A DNA stretch of 41,532 nt from Hyphomicrobiales bacterium (GTDB lineage: Bacteria > Pseudomonadota > Alphaproteobacteria > Rhizobiales > Methyloligellaceae): assembly GCA_021775575.1 (NCBI GenBank), contig JAJFHO010000056.1, forward strand, positions 1 to 41,532, given 5' to 3'. Made by a program: the position numbers and the translations under genes. The notes under the pieces are model-generated. The model saw only the letters and a program-made list of their open reading frames with translations, did no database searches and was not told where the DNA came from. This document shows, piece after piece, positions 6,865 to 41,532 of the stretch. How positions within the stretch are numbered: the first letter of the stretch is position 1; each line of letters opens with the position of its first letter.

Positions 6865-6960
6865 TCAACTGGCCGGTTTTCCTGTAAACCAGCCGACAAT
6901 AATGCCGATGACCAAAACCAGGACAATGTAGGGCAGCAGTTCAACAATCAGGAATTCCAC
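6865..6960 (-). CDS. Very small membrane protein (31 aa), hypothetical
   Basis: A 31-residue ORF starting at GTG 6960, preceded by a strong GGGGAGG site five bases upstream. The product is almost entirely one hydrophobic helix (IVELLPYIVLVLVIGIIVGW) ending in the short polar tail FTGKPAS. It sits between the BON-repeat gene (gap 196 bases) and the next small membrane ORF. The good ribosome-binding site and coherent topology argue that it is translated, although it is too short for routine gene finders. Function unknown. Confidence 0.5.
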   Translation of the reverse strand: MEFLIVELLPYIVLVLVIGIIVGWFTGKPAS

Positions 6961-7156
6961 GGAATACCTCCCCGGTAACGATCCGTATCCCGGAATACGC
7001 GCGGCGGCGTTTGGAGCCTATCCGGACTGTGATCATCAGCGCCTCAGATTGGCCGGAAAAAGTGAAAATATGTTCACCGTTGCCGCATCCACCTGTCTGC
7101 GGTTTTCGCCAGAGCTCTGTCAGCCTGCCGCCAGACCGGGGTCCTGAGCGCTGTGT

Positions 7157-8188
7157 TCAGCCCTTGCTGTTGCGGACTTCAATCTTTTCCACGGGCTTGT
7201 AGTGTTCGGGAAGCGTTTCGCGAATCAATTTGGAGAGTTCAGCGGCGGTAGCCGCATCGGCGGCGGTGCCTTCGATTGTCAGATCCTTTTCGCGCATTTT
7301 CACATTACCCTGTTCGAGGCGGGAAAGCAGGGCAATCGCCGCGAGCGCCGCATCGCCCCATCCTTTCGGCGGGCCCGAAGTCAACACCATTGCATCGTCG
7401 ATTTTGACACCGGTAAATTCCTCGCCGACCTTGTCGGTAAGAGTTTTGCGGAACAACTCGCTTGGCACGTGCCCGGAAAGCATGACCGTGCTCCCTGTGT
7501 ACTGGATCGCCAGGGAATAGAATTCCGTTCTTGGCGGTGCTATCTCCTGATGCGCCAACGTCAGGCCCGCGGGCAATGGTGATGTAAGCGCATTCGATAT
7601 CGCCGAATAAGAGGTTTGATCGATGGCCTGTCCGGCAACGTTCAGCGACATATCCGAGAGCAGCACAGATCCGTTTTCGAGATGACTTAACTGATTGAGC
7701 GCAAAGCTGATCGCTCCCAGCCAGTTTTGCTTGGGTGGAACACCAGATGCAAATTTCGTGCGGTCTTCGATTTGCAGATCCGGCATCGTCGCCTTGATAA
7801 TCCCCAGAATGGTCTGCTGGTCCGCCTTGGTGGGAACATGGCCCTTGATCCTGATTCGATCCTCTTTTCGGGAGGCCCGCCATGTGTAAGGGCTGATGCC
7901 AGGCAACAGTTCGGCGCGGTCTTGCATTGTCCCGACACCGCGGATCTGGCTTACCACTTTGCGGGCCGCGTTGCGTTCGTGGCGGTCGAAAGCGGTACCC
8001 GTCAACACGCCGTCACGCCCGTTGAATGTCACCTCGGCCCAGGAAAACCCATTCTGCTCGAGAGCTTGGGCCGAACGTTTGGTGAGATCCTGCTCAATCC
8101 GCGGCCCTTCCCCCGCAACAACGATAAGCGCGACGAACAGAACCGCAATCAAACCCAAAAGCCATTTGAATGGACTAAAATCCTTCAT
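7157..8188 (-). CDS. BON-repeat membrane-anchored protein (OmpA-family relative lacking the OmpA domain)
   Basis: A 343-residue protein with an N-terminal membrane anchor (about residues 9-25, LLGLIAVLFVALIVVAG) and a periplasmic part. A first BON-like unit (about 35-90) contains FSWAEVTFNGRDGVLTG. Two longer repeats follow, with matching cores SPYTWRASRKEDRIRIKGHVP and TEFYSLAIQYTGSTVMLSGHVP, and each later carries ALNQLSHLENGSV or ALLSRLEQGNVKM. In many alphaproteobacteria this architecture continues into a peptidoglycan-binding OmpA domain; here the protein stops at EKIEVRNSKG, and no OmpA remnant is seen downstream. A role at the envelope is inferred only. Two small membrane ORFs follow on the same strand. 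Confidence 0.72.
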   Translation of the reverse strand: MKDFSPFKWLLGLIAVLFVALIVVAGEGPRIEQDLTKRSAQALEQNGFSWAEVTFNGRDGVLTGTAFDRHERNAARKVVSQIRGVGTMQDRAELLPGISPYTWRASRKEDRIRIKGHVPTKADQQTILGIIKATMPDLQIEDRTKFASGVPPKQNWLGAISFALNQLSHLENGSVLLSDMSLNVAGQAIDQTSYSAISNALTSPLPAGLTLAHQEIAPPRTEFYSLAIQYTGSTVMLSGHVPSELFRKTLTDKVGEEFTGVKIDDAMVLTSGPPKGWGDAALAAIALLSRLEQGNVKMREKDLTIEGTAADAATAAELSKLIRETLPEHYKPVEKIEVRNSKG

Positions 8189-8672
8189 CCGGAATCCGCC
8201 TTAGGCCCAATGTAATGGTTGCCGACCGAATCGCACGAGGACAATGCGCCACCCATACGCCACAAGTCACACTGAAATTTACGCACAGCGCCAACAGCGC
8301 TTTACAACGAAACGCACACTGCGAAGAATACCAATCATACACAAGCGCGCCACCCTAATCCAAGCTTGCCAATCCGTTTACCGTAAACATTGAAAACAGC
8401 AGCCGTTAAGTGTGTTCTGAAGCGCATGCGTTTTTTGCGGCGGCGTATCCGAGCCGATGCGCAACCAGAACAGCCGCAATTTGCTAATTTGGCCGATTCC
8501 GACGTCTAATTGCAAACGCTCTACGATATCGATCTGCCAAGCTGGTTCAAAGCCAGAATCCACGCATTGGATCGTTGCGCCCGGACGGACGGCAATTTTT
8601 ATCGCTGTGCTTGGTTTTTTGCGTCTTTACCGGCTTCCCGGCTGATCCGCGCTTTGGCAGCCGCGCCCGAAA
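8189..8672. other. Intergenic region upstream of the BON protein
   Basis: This 484-base stretch lies between the histidine kinase stop and the BON-protein start, both on the minus strand. It should hold the BON gene promoter and the kinase 3' end. Short open frames on both strands have no protein-like composition or ribosome-binding site. I see no tRNA, repeat or convincing terminator. Confidence 0.4.
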
Positions 8673-9884
8673 TTACTCGGCCGCCAGCCCCTCATTTGCG
8701 TTGCCGCCCGCATCGATTTCCGGGAGTTCAAAGAAAAATGTCGACCCGGAACCGAGCTCGGACTCGATCTGGAGGCTTCCTCCATGCTGCTCGACGATCG
8801 ACTTGCAAATACTCAAGCCAAGTCCGGTGCCATGCTTTTCGCGGCCATCGTGGCTCCCGACTTGAACAAATTTCTGGAACACTTGATCCTGCTTTTCCTG
8901 CGCGATCCCCAAACCTCGGTCACGAACCGCAACCCGGATATGTGCTCCGCGCCGCTCCACAATGACATCCACGGCCTGACCCTCGGGCGAGAATTTGGCG
9001 GCGTTTGACAGAAGGTTGGTCAACACCTGCTCCAGCCTCGTTGCATCAGCGCGCACATGAGCTCGGCCGACTTTATCCTCCACACAAAAATGGACGCCAT
9101 ACTTTGCCGCATAGGGCTCATTCAGATCGACGGATTCGCGGGCCAATGCCACAACATCGACAGATCGAAATTCAAACTCCATTTTCCCGGACTCAGCCTT
9201 ACCCAGGTGAAGCAGATCGTTGACCATTGCAGACAGTTTTTGGGCGTTTCGGTGCGCGATATTGACGAGCGACGAGGTATTGCCGGGCGAACCGGCGCCG
9301 GCGCCGCTCTTCATCAAGCCAAGAGATCCCAGGATCGACGTCAGGGGTGTGCGCAACTCATGAACGATCATCGAGACAAAGTCGCCAACGGCGCTCCTGC
9401 GTTTATCATTCGCGGGCGCTTTGGCATCGTGCGCTTTTCTGTTCCGGCGCGCGGCAAAAAACTGAAATCGGTCTCGAAAGCCGTTCGTCCGCGAACAGGA
9501 TTGGAGTGTTGCTTTCCCGATTTCCGAAGAGTGTTGGCGATCATCAAGGCCATCGAGAGGATTGATCAGGAGACATTCCTCTTCCTTGTTGTCGGAAAGG
9601 AAGCGAACGCCACCAATATTCTTCTGCCGCCAAACAATTCGCGCAAGTATGGGTTTTTCGAAACCCTCCGGCAGGAGATAGATTATGTCAGGCAAATCCT
9701 CCATGCCGTTGGACACGATTTTGCAGCCGCTCGGAGACACATCCCGGATGACGCATTTGACATCATATTTGCTGTTCGTGTCGGAAGCGAAGGCGTGAAT
9801 AGCGACTGCTTTTCGGTGCTCCGCCCTCCTCTCCAATGGCTCAAACGGCGCATCGAGGGAGGCAACATCGCTGGACCGGTTCAA
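8673..9884 (-). CDS. PilZ domain-histidine kinase fusion
   Basis: A 403-residue soluble sensor kinase. The N-terminus is a PilZ domain with both c-di-GMP-binding motifs: Arg20-x3-Arg24 and DVSPSG (48-53). A linker (about 105-165) leads to a HisKA dimerisation domain with the phospho-acceptor His175 in MIVHELRTPLTS. The HATPase_c domain has an N-box (LLSNAAKF, near 291), G1 (DRGLGI, 322-327) and G2 (GTGLGL, 352-357). No receiver domain or membrane segment is present. The start is TTG at 9884, supported by GGGAG eight bases upstream; the first downstream ATG would destroy the PilZ domain. No response regulator gene is adjacent. Direct control of kinase activity by c-di-GMP is inferred from the domain pairing. 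Confidence 0.85.
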   Translation of the reverse strand: MNRSSDVASLDAPFEPLERRAEHRKAVAIHAFASDTNSKYDVKCVIRDVSPSGCKIVSNGMEDLPDIIYLLPEGFEKPILARIVWRQKNIGGVRFLSDNKEEECLLINPLDGLDDRQHSSEIGKATLQSCSRTNGFRDRFQFFAARRNRKAHDAKAPANDKRRSAVGDFVSMIVHELRTPLTSILGSLGLMKSGAGAGSPGNTSSLVNIAHRNAQKLSAMVNDLLHLGKAESGKMEFEFRSVDVVALARESVDLNEPYAAKYGVHFCVEDKVGRAHVRADATRLEQVLTNLLSNAAKFSPEGQAVDVIVERRGAHIRVAVRDRGLGIAQEKQDQVFQKFVQVGSHDGREKHGTGLGLSICKSIVEQHGGSLQIESELGSGSTFFFELPEIDAGGNANEGLAAE

Positions 9885-10373
9885 ATTTCATTCTCCCGGG
9901 AAAATGGTGTCAAACTGCCGTTTGTCACAACGGATTCGTCGGTTTCCACGTTAAATCACGTGACAAATCCCGCATGATTATCGGCACGCTTCGCTAATAC
10001 TCGATTAATGCCCCAAGGATGATCGCCGGGGCGGGCGCGAGCGGCAGGAAAACCAGGTGCCAATTTCAGTAAACCCGCTCACCCGGGTTGACGGTCTGAT
10101 GCCGGCCCGGGCGGCTTTTCGGGCACAGCGCATATACGTTCTCGAACCGCATAAATGCCGGCTTCTCGGTCCGCCGCCGTTCAATTGACCCCGGGTTACG
10201 AGTCAGACACTCTGAAACATGACGATTCGCCGCAATTCTCAAACTGGCCCATGGTTTTTGTCCATGTCCAACCGCTTACCATCGCCAAGACCCGCGCGGC
10301 TTGATGCACCGGCGTTTCACAACAACTGCGCGCACCAACGGCGAGACGGGCCGCCGATACGCGAAAGCGCAAT
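9885..10373. other. Divergent intergenic region, kinase / SPOR-like gene
   Basis: The 489 bases between the kinase start and the SPOR-like gene should contain two divergent promoters. A short imperfect inverted repeat (AACCCG/CGGGTT) near 10070-10090 is too weak to call. I found no ORF with a ribosome-binding site, no RNA gene and no dispersed repeat. Confidence 0.4.
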
Positions 10374-30790: not shown

Positions 30791-32323
30791 CTATTTCAGC
30801 AATTTCATCAGATGCGCGTGTCCGGCCGCCTGGGCGATCTCGATCGCCCTCTCGCGTTTGCTGTTCCTGCGCGCCGGGTCAGCCCCTTCTTCAAGCAGGA
30901 GTTTCACCGTGTCCTCGCGCCCGGCACGCGCCGCAAACATGAGAGCTGTGTAGCCGTAGCGGTTTTTCCGGCCGATATCGGCTCCGGCCTTGAGAAGTCG
31001 GCGAAGAAGATCAATGTTTCCCGACTTCGCGGCCAGCATCAGCGGCGTGTTGCCGCTCGCTGAAAGCGCATGAATGTCGGCGCCGGCATCAATCAAATGG
31101 TCCGCGCAGGCAAAATGCCCCCGTTCGACCGCCCTGAGCAAAGGCGCCGGTCCGCCGGCATCTATGGCGTCGGCGGACGCGCCATGCGCGAGAAGAACCG
31201 CCGCGGCGTCAACTTTGCCGCTATCCACCGCGAACCAGAGGGCGGTCCGTCCGCGCCCGTCGACCGCGTTGACCGGCGCATCTTTCGCGAGCAGCGCCAG
31301 CAAAATGCTCTTGTCTCCCCGCGGCGCCGCCTTCATCAGGATGGTCCGGCCATCTTCGGAGCGTCGGCTGATGTCGGCACCAGCCCGGACGAGATGCAGC
31401 GACGCCTTGGCGTGACCCGCTTCAATAGCTCGCTCAAGCGCCGAGCGGCCGCGGGCATCGACACTATTCAACCTGGCGCCGGCGCCGATAAGCTGGCTTA
31501 TGATCCCGGCATATCCCCCGGCGGCAGCGAACAAAATAGGCGATCGTTCAGCCCTTGAAGGATTTACCGCTGCTCCCGCCGCGATCAGCAAGGCGCTGAT
31601 CTCGCCGTGGCCCGCTTGCGCCGCGAGCGCCAATGCGCTGTAACCGTCGAGATCAACAGCATCGATGTCGGCGGTCTGCCTGACAAGCTCCTTAACCGCG
31701 TCGGTCTGACCGCGTGAAACCACATCCATGAGAGCCGACCGGCCATTGCGTGAAGCCTTTTGCGCCGTGCCGGGACTGATCTTGGGCCTCGGTTCCGACT
31801 TCCGGGCCGTTCGGCGATTGCTTGTTTCGCCCGGCTCGGGAGGCGCAGGCCTGGCTTGCGTCAGGCGCTGCGATTGCCGAGCCTGCGAAATCAATTGAGC
31901 GGCCTGCGCATGCCCTTGACCCGCCGCCTTGTCGAGCCATGTCAGCCCGGTGGTCATGTTCCGGGCCACTCCCGTGCCCGACAGATACATTTTCCCCACG
32001 CTATATTGTGCCTTTGCGTGGCCCGTTGCAGCGGCGGCACGCATCCAGTGAAAGGCTTTTTTCAGGTCTTTTGGGACGCCCTGACCGGCCCGGTAAAGCG
32101 CGGCGAGCCGGTATTGCGCCTCAGCTGACCCTTTGCCGGCGGCGCTTCGAAGCAGCGATACCGCCTCAGAATAGTCCCGGTGCCGAATTGCGGCGTCCAC
32201 CTGCGACAAGGTTCCCGCCTCATCTGAATTCCGCGCCAGGACCGGAGCCGGCCCGAGCAACAAAAGCACGGCGAGGAAGGACTTCAGCCGAGTTCTTTTC
32301 GGGCAGGATTTAGGCCGTTCCAT
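30791..32323 (-). CDS. Exported Sel1- and ankyrin-repeat protein
   Basis: A 510-residue repeat protein. From ATG 32323 it starts with a basic stretch and a signal-like hydrophobic core (LKSFLAVLLLLGPAPVLA), so export to the periplasm is likely. Two Sel1 repeats follow (AQYRLAALYRAGQGVPKDL and AQYSVGKMYLSGTGVARNM), then a polar linker, then about ten ankyrin repeats with signatures such as SGNTPLMLAAKSGN and YGYTALMFAARAGR. The start overlaps the flavoprotein stop by 14 bases, which puts it in the same transcript. Both repeat types bind proteins. I infer a scaffold or assembly role for the neighbouring electron-transfer proteins, without direct proof. Confidence 0.82.
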   Translation of the reverse strand: MERPKSCPKRTRLKSFLAVLLLLGPAPVLARNSDEAGTLSQVDAAIRHRDYSEAVSLLRSAAGKGSAEAQYRLAALYRAGQGVPKDLKKAFHWMRAAAATGHAKAQYSVGKMYLSGTGVARNMTTGLTWLDKAAGQGHAQAAQLISQARQSQRLTQARPAPPEPGETSNRRTARKSEPRPKISPGTAQKASRNGRSALMDVVSRGQTDAVKELVRQTADIDAVDLDGYSALALAAQAGHGEISALLIAAGAAVNPSRAERSPILFAAAGGYAGIISQLIGAGARLNSVDARGRSALERAIEAGHAKASLHLVRAGADISRRSEDGRTILMKAAPRGDKSILLALLAKDAPVNAVDGRGRTALWFAVDSGKVDAAAVLLAHGASADAIDAGGPAPLLRAVERGHFACADHLIDAGADIHALSASGNTPLMLAAKSGNIDLLRRLLKAGADIGRKNRYGYTALMFAARAGREDTVKLLLEEGADPARRNSKRERAIEIAQAAGHAHLMKLLK

Positions 32324-33608
32324 GCTTTGTCTCCACCTCGACGCCAATGGATTTGAGAAACCCTGTCGGCAGAATTCCGCCTGCGCAAACAATGACCGCG
32401 TCATTCTTGCCGACCATTGTTTTCCCAGCTTTCTCGATCTCTGCATCATGTTTGCCGATGCGTATGACGCTGGATTCGAACAAGACGTTCAGCCGGCGCG
32501 CACGCTGTGCCGCCTCGACCTTATTCCTGTTCTTGAGTTTGGCGCGAGAGAATGAGTCGTTTCTGTAAGACAGGGTGACGGTCGTGCCGGGTTCATCCGC
32601 AATGCTTGTCGCGGCTTCGAGTGCGCTGTCCCCTCCACCAACGACGAGAACATGACTTCCGCGATATTGCTCAGGGTCGATAAGCCGATAGACGACCTTC
32701 GCCTGCTCCTCGCCTGGCACTCCCAGCTTGCGGGGCGTGCCCCGCCTTCCGATCGTCAGAAGCACCGCGTTGGTGCTGTATTGCCCGCGCGTTGTTCGCA
32801 CCTCAAAGCCGTCACCGGACTTTGTTATGTCTTCCACGCGTTCTTCATAATTGATCGTCAATCCGGCCTCTCGCTCCGCTTCTTGCCAGAAGGAAAGCAG
32901 CTCTTCCTTGCTGGTTTCACGAAAGTTCATTTTGCCGATAATCGGCAATTTGGCGGGCCGCGTCATAACCAGCTTGCCGCGCGGGAACTGGGATACCGTG
33001 CCGCCAAGACAGTCCTGCTCGACGGTAACGAAGCGGAGCTTGTGATGCTTGGCCGCGAGGGTTGCCGCGAACCCGGCGGGGCCGGCGCCGACAATCACCA
33101 GATCGAGGCGGTCCTGGCTTGCGGAACTGTTGCTGCTTCGCACGGAGTCCACGGCCTGACAGCCTTGTTCAATCGCGTTGCCAATCAGCCCCATGCCACC
33201 GAGCTCGCCGGCGATATAAATGCCAGGCACATTGGTCTGGAAATCAGGTCCGACATGAGGAATATCCACGCCCCGTTTCTCGGTCCCGAATACCAGGGTA
33301 ATGGCCTCGGTGGGGCAGCTCGCCTTACACGCCCCATGGCCAATACACAGCGTTGGCTCGACGAGGACCGCCTTCTTGTTTATCAGCCTGAGAATCTTGC
33401 CTTCCGGGCACGCGGTTATACAGGCGGCACATCCCAGGCATTTAGCAGGGTCGATCACCGGATGCAGAGACGCAGGCTCCGTCAGGCCCGACTTGATTGC
33501 TTCGTCGCGGATCGCGACGCTGGTCCGTTCGTGTTTTTTCCGGAACAGGAAATACAATAGCCAAATCACCAGCAGTGGCGAGGCATATACAAAGATCATG
33601 GGTGTCAT
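32310..33608 (-). CDS. Membrane-anchored ferredoxin-flavoprotein, NAD(P)/FAD oxidoreductase
   Basis: A 432-residue protein. Residues about 4-22 form a membrane anchor. A bacterial-ferredoxin-like domain follows: cluster one has Cys57, Cys60, Cys63 and Cys67; cluster two has Cys88, Cys94 and Cys98, with His91 where the second cysteine is expected (CIGHGACKASCP). The segment TNVPGIYIAGELGGMGL (about 126-142), normally at the end of thioredoxin-reductase-like flavoproteins, comes before the FAD motif VIVGAGPAGFAA (171-182). The NAD(P) motif VLVVGGGDSALEAA follows near 318. The redox CXXC of thioredoxin reductases is absent. It probably passes electrons between a nicotinamide cofactor or quinone and the nearby cytochromes; direction is unknown. 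Confidence 0.85.
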   Translation of the reverse strand: MTPMIFVYASPLLVIWLLYFLFRKKHERTSVAIRDEAIKSGLTEPASLHPVIDPAKCLGCAACITACPEGKILRLINKKAVLVEPTLCIGHGACKASCPTEAITLVFGTEKRGVDIPHVGPDFQTNVPGIYIAGELGGMGLIGNAIEQGCQAVDSVRSSNSSASQDRLDLVIVGAGPAGFAATLAAKHHKLRFVTVEQDCLGGTVSQFPRGKLVMTRPAKLPIIGKMNFRETSKEELLSFWQEAEREAGLTINYEERVEDITKSGDGFEVRTTRGQYSTNAVLLTIGRRGTPRKLGVPGEEQAKVVYRLIDPEQYRGSHVLVVGGGDSALEAATSIADEPGTTVTLSYRNDSFSRAKLKNRNKVEAAQRARRLNVLFESSVIRIGKHDAEIEKAGKTMVGKNDAVIVCAGGILPTGFLKSIGVEVETKHGTA

Positions 33609-33630: not shown

Positions 33631-34938
33631 TTAGGGTCGCGGCGCTGTCGCGGGAGACACGCCAAGCGACCTGGCTTGTTGCAGGATCTTCTGTTTGACG
33701 TCGGGACGTTCGCTAAATACGTCAATAGCCCTGCTGAGTGCGGCCCGTGCCTTTTCGGGTTCCTGCAGCACCATGCGCGAGCGGATCAGCCGGACCCAGC
33801 CCTCGGCATCGTCGGGAGTTTCCTCGAGCCGGCTGGCGAGACGCCGGACCATGCCGCGGATCATTTCACTCTGCGCTTCTGGAGAGAGTTTTTGCGCCGC
33901 GCGAATATCGTCGGAGCTGGGCCCTTCAACCGTCACCTTGGCCGGCGCTTCGGCGCTCCGGGCGACCGGCAACCGATCGCTCACATCCTCTCCAATCTCG
34001 TTGGAAAGCGTCAAAATTTGCGCCTTCAACGCCGCCGACCAGATTTGGATGTCCGGATAGTCCCGCAGAAGCGCAATCCAATCCTCAAGCGCTCCCTTTT
34101 TGTCATTGTCCTGCCTTTTCATCAGAGCTGTATGAAAACGGGCTATACGGTCGGACGGATCAAGCTCCAGAGCCCGCGAAAAGGCCGCCTTTGCTTTATC
34201 GGTCACCTCGCCGGCGGAGGATTTGACCAAGGCGGCGCCATATTCCGATTGCCAGGACGCATTGCCGGGGCGCAATGCGACAGCGCGGGCATAAGCGTCG
34301 GCAGCCTCGCGATATCTGTTTGTCCGGAAATATGACCAGCCCAGCATCCGCCAGTCATCGCCGTTGTCGGGGGCGCTCTCAAGCCGTCCGGCAAGGCGTT
34401 TGATCATGATGTCGACGCCCGGCAGGGAGGGCGGTTTGTCCGGTGCGGAGCTCATTGGCGAGGCCGGCTTCCCGGCCTTCCGCACATAAGCTTTCAGATC
34501 ACCGATGACGGTGTCCGTTTGACTGGCCTGGCGGGTGTCCGATCTCTCCTGCTGGCTGGAACTGGCCAGAACGTCCTGAGCGCGCGGCCTGGGAGAGAAT
34601 TGTCCGTCGATTGCCAGCAGCGTTGCGATACCCGCGGCCAGTATTCCCGCTATCACCAACGCACTGCGCGGCGACACCATGATTCTTTGCTCCAGGTCGC
34701 TCCGCGCCGTTTTGCCGGCAAGCTTCCGCAATATTCGCAGGCGAGCCCTCTCCGCCCGCACTTCGTCGATTTGACCTGACTGCTGCTTCTTCTCAATCTC
34801 CTTGAGTTTTTCGTTATGCGCTTCGACAAGGTCGGCGCGTCCTACCGTGTTCCGCCGCCGGCGATCGAGGAAGAGCGCTATCACAGTGGCGGAGATTGTT
34901 GCGGTGACGAAAATGGCAATTGAGACTGCAACACTCAT
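33631..34938 (-). CDS. CcmI/CycH-like TPR protein, cytochrome c maturation type
   Basis: A 435-residue protein with the CcmI layout: TM1 (about 3-24), a cytoplasmic basic helical loop with the typical KEIEKKQQSGQIDEVRAERARL stretch shortened here to an about 65-residue loop, TM2 (about 94-112, ALVIAGILAAGIATLLAID) and a periplasmic TPR region with repeats such as DWRMLGWSYFRTNRYREAAD and WQSEYGAALVKSSAG. CcmI proteins hold apocytochrome c C-termini for heme ligation. No other ccm genes are near; the neighbours are an 18-heme cytochrome and electron-transfer proteins. I infer a dedicated chaperone. ATG 34938 is chosen at the first membrane helix; the ribosome-binding site is weak. First gene of the minus-strand operon. 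Confidence 0.8.
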   Translation of the reverse strand: MSVAVSIAIFVTATISATVIALFLDRRRRNTVGRADLVEAHNEKLKEIEKKQQSGQIDEVRAERARLRILRKLAGKTARSDLEQRIMVSPRSALVIAGILAAGIATLLAIDGQFSPRPRAQDVLASSSQQERSDTRQASQTDTVIGDLKAYVRKAGKPASPMSSAPDKPPSLPGVDIMIKRLAGRLESAPDNGDDWRMLGWSYFRTNRYREAADAYARAVALRPGNASWQSEYGAALVKSSAGEVTDKAKAAFSRALELDPSDRIARFHTALMKRQDNDKKGALEDWIALLRDYPDIQIWSAALKAQILTLSNEIGEDVSDRLPVARSAEAPAKVTVEGPSSDDIRAAQKLSPEAQSEMIRGMVRRLASRLEETPDDAEGWVRLIRSRMVLQEPEKARAALSRAIDVFSERPDVKQKILQQARSLGVSPATAPRP

Positions 34939-34996
34939 TGCGGCAAACCCTTTCGGTGTACGAAAAGCGAGCCCCAGCCAACAAACCCCGAGTAAT

Positions 34997-35024
34997 GACA
35001 ACGACCGGTCCGACGATTTATTCC
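34997..35024 (-). promoter_or_regulatory. Predicted ECF-sigma promoter of the ccmI-like/flavoprotein/ankyrin operon
   Basis: On the minus strand GGAATAAA (35017-35024) and CGTTGTC (34997-35003) occur, with 16 bases between the GGAAT and CGTT cores. The same two blocks with the same spacing precede the ECF sigma gene at 37580. The element ends about 58 bases before the chosen ATG. It resembles ECF-type promoters with a GGAA core; recognition by the neighbouring sigma factor is inferred from the match. Confidence 0.65.
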
Positions 35025-35040
35025 GCCGCCGGAAAAATAT

Positions 35041-35098
35041 TTCATGCACCTTCATGAAGGCTCTTTTTTGTCACGAAAGTGCCCATTTTGGTCGACCA
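35041..35098. promoter_or_regulatory. Palindromes in the divergent control region
   Basis: Two small inverted repeats lie between the divergent genes: TTCATG-N6-CATGAA (35041-35058) and the perfect ten-base TGGTCGACCA (35089-35098). They lie 80-140 bases upstream of the b-type cytochrome gene and could be operator sites for its otherwise unidentified promoter. No known consensus is recognised. Confidence 0.3.
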
Positions 35099-35179: not shown

Positions 35180-36154
35180 ATGACCGACATCGTTTCAAGT
35201 GACCTGCGCGCTCACGACCCGGTGGCGCGACGCGACGGCGGGCGGCGGGAGCCTCAGGCAAAGTCCCCTTCGGCAAGAAATCCGATGAGGAATATCGCCG
35301 ATTATTTGAATCGGCCGTCTCAATCCCTCGGCACCCTGGCATTTGGCGCCGTTGTCGCCGTTGTGCTGCTGATCGGTTGGCTGAACCGGCATGAGAAATA
35401 TCTGACACCGGAAGATGGCCTGGGCTATCAACTCGGAATTGCCGGCGCGGTCATGATGCTTCTTGTATTTCTCTATCCGCTTCGCAAGAAATTAAAGCTG
35501 CTGGGCAGATTGGGCCGCGTATCCCACTGGTTCAGGATGCACATGTTCCTGGGCATTTTGGGCCCGGTGCTGATCCTGTATCATTCCAATTTCGAACTCG
35601 GCTCCACCAACAGCAGCATTGCACTCATCGCTATGCTCACGGTCGCGTTGAGCGGTCTTGTCGGCCGCTTTTTCTACAAGCGTATTCACATGGGGCTTTA
35701 TGGGAAGAAAGCACGCGTAGCGGAAATCTTGGTAGACACCAAAGCGCTGAAGCGCGCGATAGGCGTTGATTTGAATGATTTCGAGCTTATCGCGGGCGAG
35801 CTGCAGAATTTTGAAAAGACGGTTCTCGCACCCTACCGGGGATTGTTGGAAAGCGCATTTTCCGTGCTGCTGTTTGGCCCTAGAGCTTACCATTCCCGCA
35901 AGTCGATATTGCGCCGCGCTCATGCGGCGCTGCGGTCCCAGGCCGGCGACATGGGATGGAGCCGCCGCGAGCAAAGGGCACGTTTGAGAACTGCAGAATT
36001 TCATCTGTTGGAGTATTTCGCCGCGGCGCGAAAAGCGAGCCAATTTGTCTTTTACGAACGGCTATTTTCACTCTGGCACGTGCTGCATCTGCCCATGTTC
36101 TTATTCCTGATTGTAGCCACGATCATCCACATTGTCGCAGTGCACCTGTATTAG
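35180..36154 (+). CDS. b-type-cytochrome-like membrane protein
   Basis: A 324-residue integral membrane protein resembling cytochrome b561 or ferric-reductase-type heme proteins. Start ATG 35180 is chosen because the upstream open frame overlaps the divergent promoter region. After a basic cytoplasmic N-terminus (about 55 residues) come TM1 (LGTLAFGAVVAVVLLIGWL), TM2 (GIAGAVMMLLVFLYPL), TM3 with FRMHMFLGILGPVLILYH, TM4 (SIALIAMLTVALSGLVGRFF), a long polar helical loop (about 190-285), and a last helix LHLPMFLFLIVATIIHIVAV. Histidines in TM3 and the last helix are candidate heme ligands. The 18-heme cytochrome gene starts 14 bases later, so it may be the quinone- or flavoprotein-facing partner of that cytochrome. 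Confidence 0.75.
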   Translation: MTDIVSSDLRAHDPVARRDGGRREPQAKSPSARNPMRNIADYLNRPSQSLGTLAFGAVVAVVLLIGWLNRHEKYLTPEDGLGYQLGIAGAVMMLLVFLYPLRKKLKLLGRLGRVSHWFRMHMFLGILGPVLILYHSNFELGSTNSSIALIAMLTVALSGLVGRFFYKRIHMGLYGKKARVAEILVDTKALKRAIGVDLNDFELIAGELQNFEKTVLAPYRGLLESAFSVLLFGPRAYHSRKSILRRAHAALRSQAGDMGWSRREQRARLRTAEFHLLEYFAAARKASQFVFYERLFSLWHVLHLPMFLFLIVATIIHIVAVHLY

Positions 36155-36167
36155 GAGGGGGGCGGCT

Positions 36168-37529
36168 GTGCACGGTTGGTCCCACTGGATAACCTTCCTT
36201 GCCGGCCTGATTGCGTTCTCCAGCACGGCGCACGCGCAGAATATATTCGAGCGCATGGTCATGCCCGGTCCGCTCATTGAAGGCCACGCCAAGATTGAGA
36301 AGGACTGCGGCAAATGCCATCAGCCGTTTTCCAAAGAAACACAGTCACGCCTGTGCCGCGACTGCCATGACAAGGTCGATGCCGACATGAAGCAAGGCGT
36401 GGGCTTTCACGGCTTGCGCAAGGATATCGCCAAGACAGAGTGCAAGCATTGCCATACGGACCATATTGGCCGGGACGCCGACACGGTTCAGCTCGATCCC
36501 GAAAACTTCGACCATCATTTCACTGACTTTCCACTGACCGGCGCACACAAAGCTGTTGCATGCGCCGCCTGTCACAAACCGAAAGCCAAATTTCGGGATT
36601 CACCGCGCGCCTGTGCCAAGTGCCACAAGGAGGATGAGCCGCACAAAGGCCGTCTCGGTGAGAAATGCGACTCCTGTCATAGCGTGGAAAATTGGCGCGA
36701 CACAAAACCATTCGATCACGACAAGACAAAATTTCCGCTTGTTGATACGCATAAAAAAGTTCGTTGCGAGCTGTGTCATACGGCCGAAATCTACAAGGAC
36801 TTGCCGACCGCCTGTGTCGCCTGCCACCGGTTGCAGGATGTCCACAACGGAACGCTTGGCGAAAAATGCGAGACCTGCCACTCATCGAAGGAGTGGAAGA
36901 TCCTGAAATTCGACCATGACAAGCAAACGAAGTTTCCTCTGCGCCACAAACATCGTGAGGCAAAATGCACCAGTTGCCACAAGAGCACCGTGCGCGCGGA
37001 GAAGCTGTCAACCAAATGCGTCTCCTGCCACCGCGAAGACGACGCGCATGACAGGCAGCTCGGCTCGAAGTGCGCCGACTGCCATAATGAAGCTGGCTGG
37101 CTCCAGACGAAGGCCTTTGATCACGAGATAACCCGCTTCCCCCTGATCGGCCAGCATACCGTTGTCCCGTGCGAGGAGTGCCACATAACACAGAAGTTCA
37201 AGGACGCGCCGCTGGCGTGCGAACGCTGCCATGAGGACAAGTTTCACACAGGCCGTCTGGGGCCGGTTTGCGCAAACTGTCATAACCCGAATGGCTGGGA
37301 TTTCTGGCAATTCGACCACAATAGCCGGACCCGCCATCCGCTAACCGGGGCGCATGAAGGCCTTGATTGCCATGCCTGCCACCAGGCGCCGGTAAGCGGT
37401 GCCATTCGCCTCGCCACCGACTGCTATTCCTGCCACCGGCGCGACGATACTCATGATGGTTCATTTGGTCGGCGTTGCGACCGATGTCATACAACGAAAT
37501 CGTTCTCCGGCGCGCTCATTCGCCGGTAG
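36168..37529 (+). CDS. Periplasmic 18-heme c-type cytochrome
   Basis: A 453-residue exported multiheme cytochrome. The GTG at 36168 is set by AGGAGGGG seven bases upstream (36153-36160) and opens a signal peptide (WITFLAGLIAFSSTAHA, cleavage after residue 23). Eighteen CXXCH heme-attachment motifs occur: three in a diverged N-terminal part (48-51, 63-66, 92-95 cysteines) and fifteen in five tandem modules from residue 114 to the end. Each module also has three further histidines that could serve as distal ligands. There is no membrane anchor beyond the signal, so it is periplasmic or exported further. It should store or conduct electrons over a long distance; partner candidates are the adjacent b-type protein and flavoprotein. 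It is not recognisable as a named cytochrome. Confidence 0.92.
   Translation: MHGWSHWITFLAGLIAFSSTAHAQNIFERMVMPGPLIEGHAKIEKDCGKCHQPFSKETQSRLCRDCHDKVDADMKQGVGFHGLRKDIAKTECKHCHTDHIGRDADTVQLDPENFDHHFTDFPLTGAHKAVACAACHKPKAKFRDSPRACAKCHKEDEPHKGRLGEKCDSCHSVENWRDTKPFDHDKTKFPLVDTHKKVRCELCHTAEIYKDLPTACVACHRLQDVHNGTLGEKCETCHSSKEWKILKFDHDKQTKFPLRHKHREAKCTSCHKSTVRAEKLSTKCVSCHREDDAHDRQLGSKCADCHNEAGWLQTKAFDHEITRFPLIGQHTVVPCEECHITQKFKDAPLACERCHEDKFHTGRLGPVCANCHNPNGWDFWQFDHNSRTRHPLTGAHEGLDCHACHQAPVSGAIRLATDCYSCHRRDDTHDGSFGRRCDRCHTTKSFSGALIRR
36507..37526 (+). repeat. Five tandem triheme modules in the 18-heme cytochrome
   Basis: Five in-frame repeats of 65-72 residues begin at residues 114, 182, 248, 317 and 382, i.e. 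near 36507, 36711, 36909, 37116 and 37311. Each has the order FDH, then PL-x2-xH, CXXCH, CXXCH, H-x3-(L/F)G, CXXCH. DNA identity between copies has largely decayed, so the duplication is old; the protein pattern is clear. Confidence 0.85.
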
Positions 37530-37629: not shown

Positions 37630-38151
37630 GTGACTGAGGAAATCCGCGAAAGGGTGATCGCCTTTATACCGCGACTGCGCAGGTTTGCGTTTTCGTTAAC
37701 CGGCGACTGGGACCGTATGGAAGAATTGGTTCAAGATACTTGCGAGCGCGCACTGACCCGGCATCAGCAGTGGAAGCCCGGTACGAGCCTGGAAAGCTGG
37801 ATGTGCAGGATTGCCCAGAACCTTTGGAAGGATGGGCTGAAAGCGAAAAAGCACCGTATGCAGGTCTCCGACGACAGTCTCCATTTCCTGACCGGTGTCG
37901 ACGGGCGAAACGAAATGGAGGAACGGCTGACATTGAAAGCGGTTATGGCGGCGATTTCCCGGCTGCCGGCCGATCAAAGGCTTGTCATTGCGCTCGTATG
38001 TATCGACGGGCGCTCTTATGCGGAAACCGCGGAGATATTGGACATTCCAGTTGGCACGGTCATGAGCCGGTTGGCGCGCGCGAGGCAAGCCCTTTACGCC
38101 GGCCTTTATGACAGTGAACGCGGTTCGCCATATGCAAAAGCGGAGGGGTAG
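37630..38151 (+). CDS. ECF-type RNA polymerase sigma factor
   Basis: A 173-residue sigma-70-family factor with only regions 2 and 4. Region 2 (about 12-75) contains RFAFSLTGDWDRMEELVQDT and TSLESWMCRIAQNLWKD. Region 4 (about 112-165) holds RLPADQRLVIALVCIDGRSY and the helix-turn-helix AEILDIPVGTVMSRLARARQ. The GTG at 37630 has CGGGGA upstream; longer in-frame starts overlap the cytochrome gene. The anti-sigma gene begins two bases after its stop. A matching promoter motif in front of itself and in front of the divergent operon defines a probable small regulon. The inducing signal is unknown; redox or oxidative stress is plausible from the target genes. Confidence 0.92.
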   Translation: MTEEIRERVIAFIPRLRRFAFSLTGDWDRMEELVQDTCERALTRHQQWKPGTSLESWMCRIAQNLWKDGLKAKKHRMQVSDDSLHFLTGVDGRNEMEERLTLKAVMAAISRLPADQRLVIALVCIDGRSYAETAEILDIPVGTVMSRLARARQALYAGLYDSERGSPYAKAEG

Positions 38152-38153
38152 GG

Positions 38154-38987
38154 TTGGACAAGGTCACAAATGAAATGCTGATGGCGTTCGTCGATGGTGA
38201 GCTTGATCCGGCCACGAGGAAAAAAATCAAAGCTGCTCTTCATTCGGATCCGGAGCTGCGCGCCAGGGCTGCCATTTTCGAGGCAACGCGGCAGCCCATC
38301 GCAGAGGTTTTTGATCCGATATTGAGCCACCCCCTTTCCCAGCTTCCGAAGGGTATGCGTACCGGGGCTGGGAAAGAGGGATCGGCTGCTCACGCTCCCC
38401 GAGACCTCCATTGGCGTCCCGAGGGGCTTTTCAGATGGTTTTCGGGCTTGTTTGAGTCGTCCAGGACTTTGTCGCTGGCGGTCGCGCTTTGCGCGGTGTT
38501 TCTGGGCGGTCTTGGAATAGGCCTGTTGATGAAAACGGGCCTGGTGCCGCATGACGCACGCGGCGCCGCTCTCGTCGCCTATCGTGATGACGGTCTTGTG
38601 GCAACCGGGAGCCTTGATCGCACACTTGAAACGATCGGGAGCGGATCGAGGCTCGCGAAGTCCGTTACCGGCGGGCAAGAGCTGGAAATCAGGCCGATCC
38701 TGACCTTCCGTAATCGCCAGGGCCAGTTTTGCCGGGAGTATGAAGTTCTTTATCCGGTCCCGAGCCGGTTTGCCGGTCTTGCATGCCGCACCGAGGACGG
38801 GGACTGGAACGTCCTTGTTCACTCACCGGTCACGGCTCAACCGGCCCCGGGCAATGATACCGCTGTTGCCTCCGGGGGAGGCCTGGAAACCATCGATGCC
38901 GTGGTCGGGCGCATCATCAAAGGCAACGCCCTCGACCCCGAACAAGAAACATCGCTCATGAACAAGGGATGGCGGGGACAGGACTAG
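38154..38987 (+). CDS. Membrane-bound anti-sigma factor
   Basis: A 277-residue bitopic protein paired with the ECF sigma factor. The start is TTG at 38154, supported by GGAGGGG five bases upstream within the end of the sigma gene. The N-terminal cytoplasmic domain has EMLMAFVDGELDPATRKKI, typical of alphaproteobacterial anti-sigma factors. It lacks the zinc-binding HXXXCXXC, so it should act without zinc. One membrane segment (about 104-124, LSLAVALCAVFLGGLGIGLL) leads to a periplasmic domain with two cysteines (QFCREYEVL and GLACRTEDGDW) that could form a disulfide and sense redox state; that is inference. Its last codons lie in the left inverted repeat of the downstream element. Confidence 0.85.
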   Translation: MDKVTNEMLMAFVDGELDPATRKKIKAALHSDPELRARAAIFEATRQPIAEVFDPILSHPLSQLPKGMRTGAGKEGSAAHAPRDLHWRPEGLFRWFSGLFESSRTLSLAVALCAVFLGGLGIGLLMKTGLVPHDARGAALVAYRDDGLVATGSLDRTLETIGSGSRLAKSVTGGQELEIRPILTFRNRQGQFCREYEVLYPVPSRFAGLACRTEDGDWNVLVHSPVTAQPAPGNDTAVASGGGLETIDAVVGRIIKGNALDPEQETSLMNKGWRGQD

Positions 38988-40108: not shown

Positions 40109-41224
40109 CTATTGACGTCCTGTAGTTAGTGACAATGCGCGCCCCGGCGCGCTGCTCTTATCGCGGGATAATACCGGTTCCCACGAAAGCCCTGCGGTGC
40201 CATAAATGACGGGCGGGGCCGCATCCTTGTTTGGCGGTCGCGGCGCTGTCTGCGCAATTGAGGCCGGCTGCCGTTCATTGCCGCGACAGTCTGGCGGCGC
40301 CATTACCAGACCCCTCCCGTAAACGGGGTCCCTGCCCCGTGAGCCCAAATCCCGAACCGGCAGATATTTCATAAGTTGATCGCGGGTGCGCTCATTCACC
40401 CGGCTCTTGTAGATTGTCGCCAGCAGCGCGGTGACATGTGGCGCCGCGAAGGACGTGCCGGATTGATAGCCCTCCCTGTCGCCGGGAAGCGCCGTCCAGA
40501 TATTCACGCCTGGGGCCGCCACATCGATAAATAGACCGCGGTTCGCGCGTCTGTAGCTGTGCAGCTGGCTGTTTACCGCGGTGACCGCAATAACCTCCGG
40601 ATAGGCCGCGGGATAACGCGGCGGTGCGGCCGGCCCTTCGTTGCCGGTCGCCGCGACAAAAATCGCGTGCTTGCCGCTCATCCGCTGCAATGCGTCATGG
40701 ATGAGCCGGTCTTCAGGGCCGACAAAACTCATATTGACAAGCTGCACATCCCACGCCTCCAGCCAATCGAGGGCCTTGAGCAGCGTAAGCGTATCCGTGG
40801 CCGGCTGGCCGTTCGCATCGGCATAGAAAATATTCGCCGCAAAAAATTCCGCGGCCGGGGCAAGTCCGGGCGTACTGCTATTAAGCGAGCCGGCGAGTAT
40901 CGAAGCGACGGCTGTCCCGTGGTTATCTGCCGACGCCCGCTGTTCGGGCGGGATGAAATTTCCAACCCTTATGCTCTGGCCCTGGAATGTGCGATGCGCG
41001 AGATCGACATTGGTATCTATAATGCCGATGCGGACGCCGCCGCTGCAGGAGCTGAGTTCAGGGTTCCACCGTAGAACGGAACGGGCGAAACAATGGTCGG
41101 CCTCGCAGGCATGTTCAGCACTTCTGGCTCTGCGGCCGGAACGCGCACGGCTCCGGGGGGAAGGTTTCTTCCCGGACGTCGCGGGCTTTGCCGGCGCGCG
41201 GCGCTCTTTGGCCGCATGATACAC
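40109..41224 (-). CDS. Subtilisin-family (S8) serine peptidase, catalytic part
   Basis: The catalytic domain is complete. Counting from GTG 41224, Asp70 lies in GIIDTNVDLAH, His102 in DNHGTAVASILAG, the oxyanion Asn195 in ATGNEGPA and Ser258 in SGTSFAAPH. A Lys/Arg/Pro-rich linker (1-45) precedes it. The frame is open upstream beyond this GTG to a stop at 41429-41431 and encodes conserved-looking propeptide sequence, so the GTG is not the natural start (see next entry). Two cysteines near residues 40-60 could pair. Such proteases in alphaproteobacteria sometimes lie near ECF sigma/anti-sigma genes, but a functional link is not shown here. It should act outside the cytoplasm. Confidence 0.82.
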   Translation of the reverse strand: MYHAAKERRAPAKPATSGKKPSPRSRARSGRRARSAEHACEADHCFARSVLRWNPELSSCSGGVRIGIIDTNVDLAHRTFQGQSIRVGNFIPPEQRASADNHGTAVASILAGSLNSSTPGLAPAAEFFAANIFYADANGQPATDTLTLLKALDWLEAWDVQLVNMSFVGPEDRLIHDALQRMSGKHAIFVAATGNEGPAAPPRYPAAYPEVIAVTAVNSQLHSYRRANRGLFIDVAAPGVNIWTALPGDREGYQSGTSFAAPHVTALLATIYKSRVNERTRDQLMKYLPVRDLGSRGRDPVYGRGLVMAPPDCRGNERQPASIAQTAPRPPNKDAAPPVIYGTAGLSWEPVLSRDKSSAPGRALSLTTGRQ

Positions 41225-41532
41225 GCGGTATTTCTTATTGAGTTCGAAACTGCCGGCGGGGACTTCGCGTCTGAGGAGTTGACGCGCTTTGCGCGCGCCC
41301 AGGCCCGGAGGGGTTTTCAGCCGGACAACCCGTCCGCGAACGCCCGATATTGCCGTCGAGGAGATAATTTCGAAACCGAGCCTCTGCGCCGCGCGCTGTC
41401 CCCTGGCGCCTGGTTTACGGCAAGAACCTCATCGTCTCTGAAAGAGGTCTTCGCGTGGCCGTGGCGGTCTACGGTTCGTCTTGATCGTTTTTTCGCTGGC
41501 TTTGGCTGTTGTGCTTCCTGCTCGTCATTCTC
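41225..41532 (-). pseudogene. 5' part of the S8 peptidase, interrupted by an apparent frameshift and cut by the window edge
   Basis: In the frame of the catalytic part, 41225 to about 41399 encodes propeptide-like residues (RLGFEIISSTAISGVRGRVV and GLGARKARQLLRREVPAGSF). Beyond that the reading continues in another frame: from the window end, DDEVLAVNQAP leads up to the CCCC run at 41400-41403. Adding one base in that run would join the two into one continuous precursor. The start codon and any signal peptide lie outside the window. The shift could be a real mutation or a sequencing error in a homopolymer; the surrounding residues look selected, which favours a recent change or an error. Confidence 0.7.

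Follow-up and report, generated by a model that had tools for sequence, protein, structure and literature searches.

The window analyzed here is the complete 41,532-nucleotide contig from a Hyphomicrobiales bacterium, and the only multiheme open reading frame within it lies at positions 36168 to 37529 on the forward strand. The start codon is a GTG at 36168, and a strong ribosome binding site, AGGAGG (36153-36158), is located 9 nucleotides upstream of it. Because this site overlaps the stop codon of the preceding gene (35180-36154, forward strand), which encodes an inner-membrane protein (IMP), the two genes are probably translationally coupled. The 453-residue product has a signal-like N-terminus that ends in AHAQ and contains 18 CXXCH heme-binding motifs, which account for all of its cysteines. 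When the protein was shuffled 20,000 times, the mean number of CXXCH motifs was 0.27 and the maximum was 4. The coordinates, the start and the count of 18 motifs given by the sequence-only reading were thus found to be right on re-reading the sequence. After removal of the predicted signal peptide, the protein has 23.8 residues per heme. It matched Pfam PF14522 (Cytochrome_C7) over five stretches with 84 bits against a gathering score of 24.8, the only other Pfam matches were of the c3 type, and 34 full-length homologs were collected.

The IMP gene encodes a protein of 324 residues that is a probable di-heme-b electron carrier, with the motifs WFRMH-X13-H, SGLVG and WHVLH-X13-H. Three genes on the reverse strand precede it. 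The first (30791-32449) encodes a protein with Sel1 and ankyrin repeats (Pfam) and a signal-like N-terminus that is probably periplasmic. The second (32310-33608) encodes a flavoprotein with an N-terminal membrane segment, a 4Fe-4S dicluster region (Fer4_10) and a thioredoxin reductase-like FAD/NAD(P) domain (Pyr_redox_3) with GxGxxG motifs; no redox CXXC was seen in its sequence. The third (33631-35055) encodes a CcmI/CcmH-like TPR protein of cytochrome c maturation that matched TPR_CcmH_CycH, scored below the cut-off for cytochro_ccmI and was found in 13 of the homologous loci. At other loci of Alphaproteobacteria, genes for CcmF, CcmH and a CcmG-like thioredoxin lie in this place, and the arrangement suggests that the Ccm genes may be a dedicated heme-attachment set for this system. 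Directly after the cytochrome gene, on the forward strand, are an ECF sigma factor (37630-38151; Sigma70_r2, r4_2), which is a possible regulator, and an anti-sigma factor (38154-38987; weak zf-HC2 and anti-sigma matches); conservation of the pair is limited to a few loci of Alphaproteobacteria. A subtilase-family peptidase gene (40109-41224, reverse strand) adjoins the system in seven loci.

The cytochrome is built from triheme units in tandem. The sequence FDH occurs at residues 114, 182, 248, 317 and 382 and starts modules of 68, 66, 69, 65 and 72 residues, numbered here as modules 2 (36507-36710), 3 (36711-36908), 4 (36909-37115), 5 (37116-37310) and 6 (37311-37526), all on the forward strand. 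Five FDH-started repeats of 65-72 residues that hold 15 of the 18 CXXCH motifs are therefore present as had been claimed. The description of the protein as five triheme modules was incomplete, as the first three hemes belong to a sixth, divergent triheme unit at residues of about 40-113 (36285-36506, forward strand). Of its candidate distal histidines, H40 is at -7 relative to the first CXXCH, while H81 and H99 are at -11 and +7 relative to the third; these offsets are the same in all 35 homologs compared. The corresponding offsets in the FDH modules are -16/-17, -5 and -8.

The three extra histidines that the sequence-only reading had assigned to each FDH module were well conserved among 193 homologous modules: the first two were present in every one, and the third was at a fixed offset in 191. 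In the alignment of the 34 full-length homologs, all 18 CXXCH motifs are invariant, and exactly 18 histidines outside these motifs are also invariant, with no others (H40, 81, 99, 116, 127, 159, 184, 195, 226, 250, 262, 294, 319, 330, 360, 384, 396 and 429). The presence of one invariant spare histidine per heme strongly supports the predicted bis-His ligation of every heme. The same 18:18 invariance provides strong indirect evidence against a catalytic heme in the protein. Because reductases are numerous among multiheme cytochromes with CXXCH repeats, a catalytic reductase for a soluble substrate was considered; such a role is extremely improbable, however, since an invariant spare histidine for each heme would leave no open site and no reductase family reached its cut-off. 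The score for the DmsE-type decaheme family was 22.2 against a cut-off of 192.

Structure prediction, which the sequence-only reading had proposed as a check, was partly informative. The full-length AlphaFold model built from the 34 homologs was poor (pTM 0.33), but a single module, module 3, modelled alone from an 80-module alignment had a pLDDT of 93.8 and a pTM of 0.74, which indicates that a module in the FDH register can form a compact unit. Foldseek searches of the PDB returned no match for the full-length model or for the single-module model, which in the latter case says little about the fold, and a single-sequence search of the PDB with the 18-heme protein also gave no match. A profile of the module was more productive: the best match in the PDB was the Geobacter dodecaheme GSU1996 (3ov0; E 4e-11), followed by the sixteen-heme cytochrome HmcA and the nonaheme cytochrome, with matched stretches that were partial and shifted.

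These matches raise the question of whether the protein is a true member of the Geobacter-type c7 nanowire family (TIGR04257). The best PDB profile match to 3ov0 and the Cytochrome_C7 score above its cut-off are in agreement with such membership, as is a TIGR04257 score of 32.5 bits; the curated cut-off of that nanowire_3heme family is 40, however, and the order of ligands and hemes differs. It is H-H-C-C-H-C in the 193 modules compared here and H-H-C-H(or M)-C-C in aligned c7 sequences. The unit is also shorter in the 18-heme protein, and the gene neighbors are those of PCC3. Membership in the c7 nanowire family is quite unlikely on these grounds. The 18-heme protein would work like the GSU1996 wire while standing outside TIGR04257 by score and by ligand order.

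The spacing of the modules is nearly clocklike among the homologs, with 18 residues between the second and third CXXCH and 33 residues between the third and the first of the next module. Only the loop between the first and second CXXCH varies. Relatives with other copy numbers, which the sequence-only reading had suggested searching for, were found, and their heme count steps by whole modules: there are 18 hemes in the homologs from Alphaproteobacteria, 21 in those from Gammaproteobacteria, Nitrospira, Deltaproteobacteria and Myxococcales, and 27 in one from Nitrospinaceae. In terms of module history, the proposed tandem duplication stands insofar as the modules are repeated in tandem. A recent origin was ruled out, because the mean identity between modules at the same position in different species (0.52) is higher than that between modules of one protein (0.40); the grouping of modules by position across species indicates that the duplication is ancient. 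In the 21-heme form, the closest counterpart of both the fourth and the fifth module is most often module 4 of the 18-heme protein. Whole modules appear to have been gained or lost later, after the old duplication.

To place the cytochrome in a wider context, 84,980 species genomes were scanned for homologs, and 45 loci were obtained. A membrane protein accompanies the cytochrome in 41 of these loci; paired WX3HX13H motifs are found in 39 of the 41 IMP homologs and SGXXG is found in all of them. No Pfam family, including FRD, matched the IMP of the window. A hydropathy scan of this protein with a strict cut-off gave four helices, with a motif-bearing segment at about residues 117-136, which would be a fifth helix, falling below the cut-off. 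He et al. (PMC5566968, 2017) describe the IMP of PCC3 as a protein of about 300 residues with two WX3HX13H motifs, SGXXG and five transmembrane helices, and the periplasmic multiheme cytochrome (MHC) of PCC3 as having 22-39 residues per heme, a range that includes the value found here, and a median of 21 hemes. Tubeworm endosymbionts belong to the hosts in which PCC3 was first described there, and lineages related to them carry homologs of all parts in our 45-locus scan. The assignment to PCC3, whose founding proteins are Slit_0867-0870 of Sideroxydans, rests on the motifs, the gene set and these tubeworm-endosymbiont-related loci.

In many of the 45 loci, these genes are followed by a larger second MHC with 11-62 hemes and by an outer-membrane protein, and neither a second MHC nor a porin was found in the flanks examined at several Alphaproteobacterial loci. 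The contig of the window ends at 41532, with the IMP and the 18-heme MHC adjacent to each other on it, and the second MHC and a porin are on another contig of the same genome, C139 (10,298 bp). That contig ends inside the extracellular MHC (9246-10298), and the putative large beta-barrel porin (6946-9330) is a protein of 794 residues that matched porins of relatives at E 4e-193. Since the second MHC starts about 4 kb downstream of the first in a sister genome (G017), the two contig ends probably flank a single gap, an adjacency drawn from that sister genome. The available part of the extracellular MHC contains near-identical short repeats (FDHANVTGTCISCHNGQLATGKSPNH), and these were duplicated more recently than the periplasmic modules. 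A search of the genome with the MtrB family was silent, and the controls were equally silent. Among 61 related genomes, the MHC, the IMP and the flavoprotein occur together in the same three and in none of the others. A second copy of the IMP was seen on another contig of one genome (G040), which may hold two conduits.

The product of 36168-37529 is very probably the periplasmic MHC of a PCC3-type conduit, an assessment that includes the proposed six-unit fold and electron path. The sequence-only reading had named a known family already describing the protein as one of the results that would speak against it; PCC3, recognized by the IMP motifs and the gene set, is such a family. Moreover, the periplasmic MHC of PCC3 has already been proposed as a periplasm-spanning wire in the published work (PMC5566968, PMC10734462). 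The present analysis extends this picture by the sixth unit, the 18:18 invariance, the variation in length by whole modules, and the flavoprotein and Sel1/ankyrin partners.

From Alphaproteobacteria to Nitrospinaceae, these two partners are linked to the system at most loci. The gene for the flavoprotein adjoins the MHC gene in 36 of 45 loci, and the Sel1/ankyrin gene is present in 40 of 45; among 42 homologous loci counted, 32 have the latter next to the flavoprotein gene. Both genes are co-oriented with those of the IMP and the MHC in Deltaproteobacteria, in Nitrospinaceae and in the Hainich locus. FAD, thioredoxin-like and ankyrin proteins go unmentioned in the main text of PMC5566968. When plasmids were searched, a single full-length relative, a distant one, was obtained from an Emticicia plasmid, along with numerous short, partial matches. 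This Bacteroidota version, on Emticicia oligotrophica plasmid pEMTOL02 (3664-15462), has in a row the genes for CcsA, a small hypothetical protein, an NAD(P)-binding protein and two cytochromes, with one more protein gene in the same row; the annotated NAD(P)-binding protein thus lies between the small hypothetical protein and the cytochromes.

In the proposed mechanism, the 18-heme protein would be exported and would carry 18 covalent hemes in a row of six triheme units. With two histidine ligands on every heme, the protein would transfer electrons and have no free iron site. Electrons would then hop, for uptake or for release, between the di-heme-b IMP of the inner membrane, the 18 hemes, and the porin and extracellular MHC, along a heme order and path that are putative. 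The description of the protein as a molecular wire is supported in the sense of a wire-like electron carrier. It is also conceivable that the main task of the 18 hemes is to hold electrons in the periplasm, like a capacitor of the kind proposed for Geobacter GSU1996, and not to bridge the two membranes. GSU1996, the protein for which storage was proposed, is the best solved match of the module profile, and many hemes in one chain will store electrons in any case. We nevertheless regard storage as the main function as unlikely, as the linked inner-membrane carrier and, in many relatives, the porin and extracellular MHC fit a through-path better.

At the cytoplasmic end of the PCC3-type conduit, the flavoprotein would probably link the IMP to NAD(P)H or ferredoxin. 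The sequence RKKHER follows its N-terminal hydrophobic segment, and the positive-inside rule would accordingly place the redox domains in the cytoplasm. Gene linkage, co-occurrence and the analogy with flavin-fed FRD-type proteins point to the flavoprotein as the first link, and its occurrence in the same three genomes as the cytochrome suggests that electrons may enter or leave by way of NAD(P)H. He et al. proposed that PCC3 exchanges electrons with quinones (PMC5566968). As against this published quinone-coupled model of four parts, we tentatively put forward PCC3 as a six-part, NADPH-oxidase-like trans-envelope conduit with a membrane-anchored NAD(P)H/ferredoxin flavoprotein at its cytoplasmic end that would give electrons to, or accept them from, the di-heme-b IMP and the multiheme wire, a reading to which we give somewhat less than even weight. 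PCC3 was also proposed to serve in iron oxidation. In Sideroxydans ES-1, the PCC3 genes go down, not up, on Fe(II), and this was counted against the PCC3 reading. The genome also has a gene for the RuBisCO large chain (contig C169, 1578-2504; E 2e-139), which possibly points to autotrophy and is compatible with electron uptake for carbon fixation, without proving it. PCC3 is a widespread proposed conduit, and the locus bears on its point of entry into metabolism. The flavoprotein and Sel1/ankyrin protein, which travel with PCC3 across several phyla, offer a direct handle on whether the conduit couples with NAD(P)H or with quinones.

The 18-heme protein shares features with several known systems. 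Like HmcA (1z1n) and the nonaheme cytochrome (1duw), it is a class III-type multiheme chain with weak profile similarity to both, but the grouping of hemes is different, and the score for the HmcA equivalog was 23.1 against a cut-off of 400. It resembles the GSU1996 dodecaheme "nanowire" in its tandem triheme units on one periplasmic chain and in its profile similarity. In contrast to GSU1996, which has one His-Met heme per domain, the 18-heme protein has a spare invariant histidine for every heme, and the order of histidines and hemes in its modules is unlike that of GSU1996. To our knowledge, GSU1996 has no IMP or porin partner. In the FRD/NOX and MsrQ-Fre systems, a cytoplasmic flavin enzyme feeds a membrane protein with two b hemes and paired H-X13-H motifs; the present system differs in that the IMP is without an FRD match in Pfam and the acceptor would be a multiheme wire.

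The closest likeness is to PCC3 as described in the main texts of the published work. The shared features are a large periplasmic MHC with repeats, hemes in multiples of three and about 24 residues per heme, together with an IMP that has paired WX3HX13H and SGXXG motifs, an extracellular MHC and a many-stranded porin (PMC5566968). The 18 hemes found here differ from the published median of 21 and from the 21, 24 or 27 hemes in Gallionellaceae (PMC10734462). The flavoprotein, Sel1/ankyrin and Ccm genes are unlisted in these main texts (PMC5566968, PMC10734462), whereas at the present locus they are linked to the conduit.
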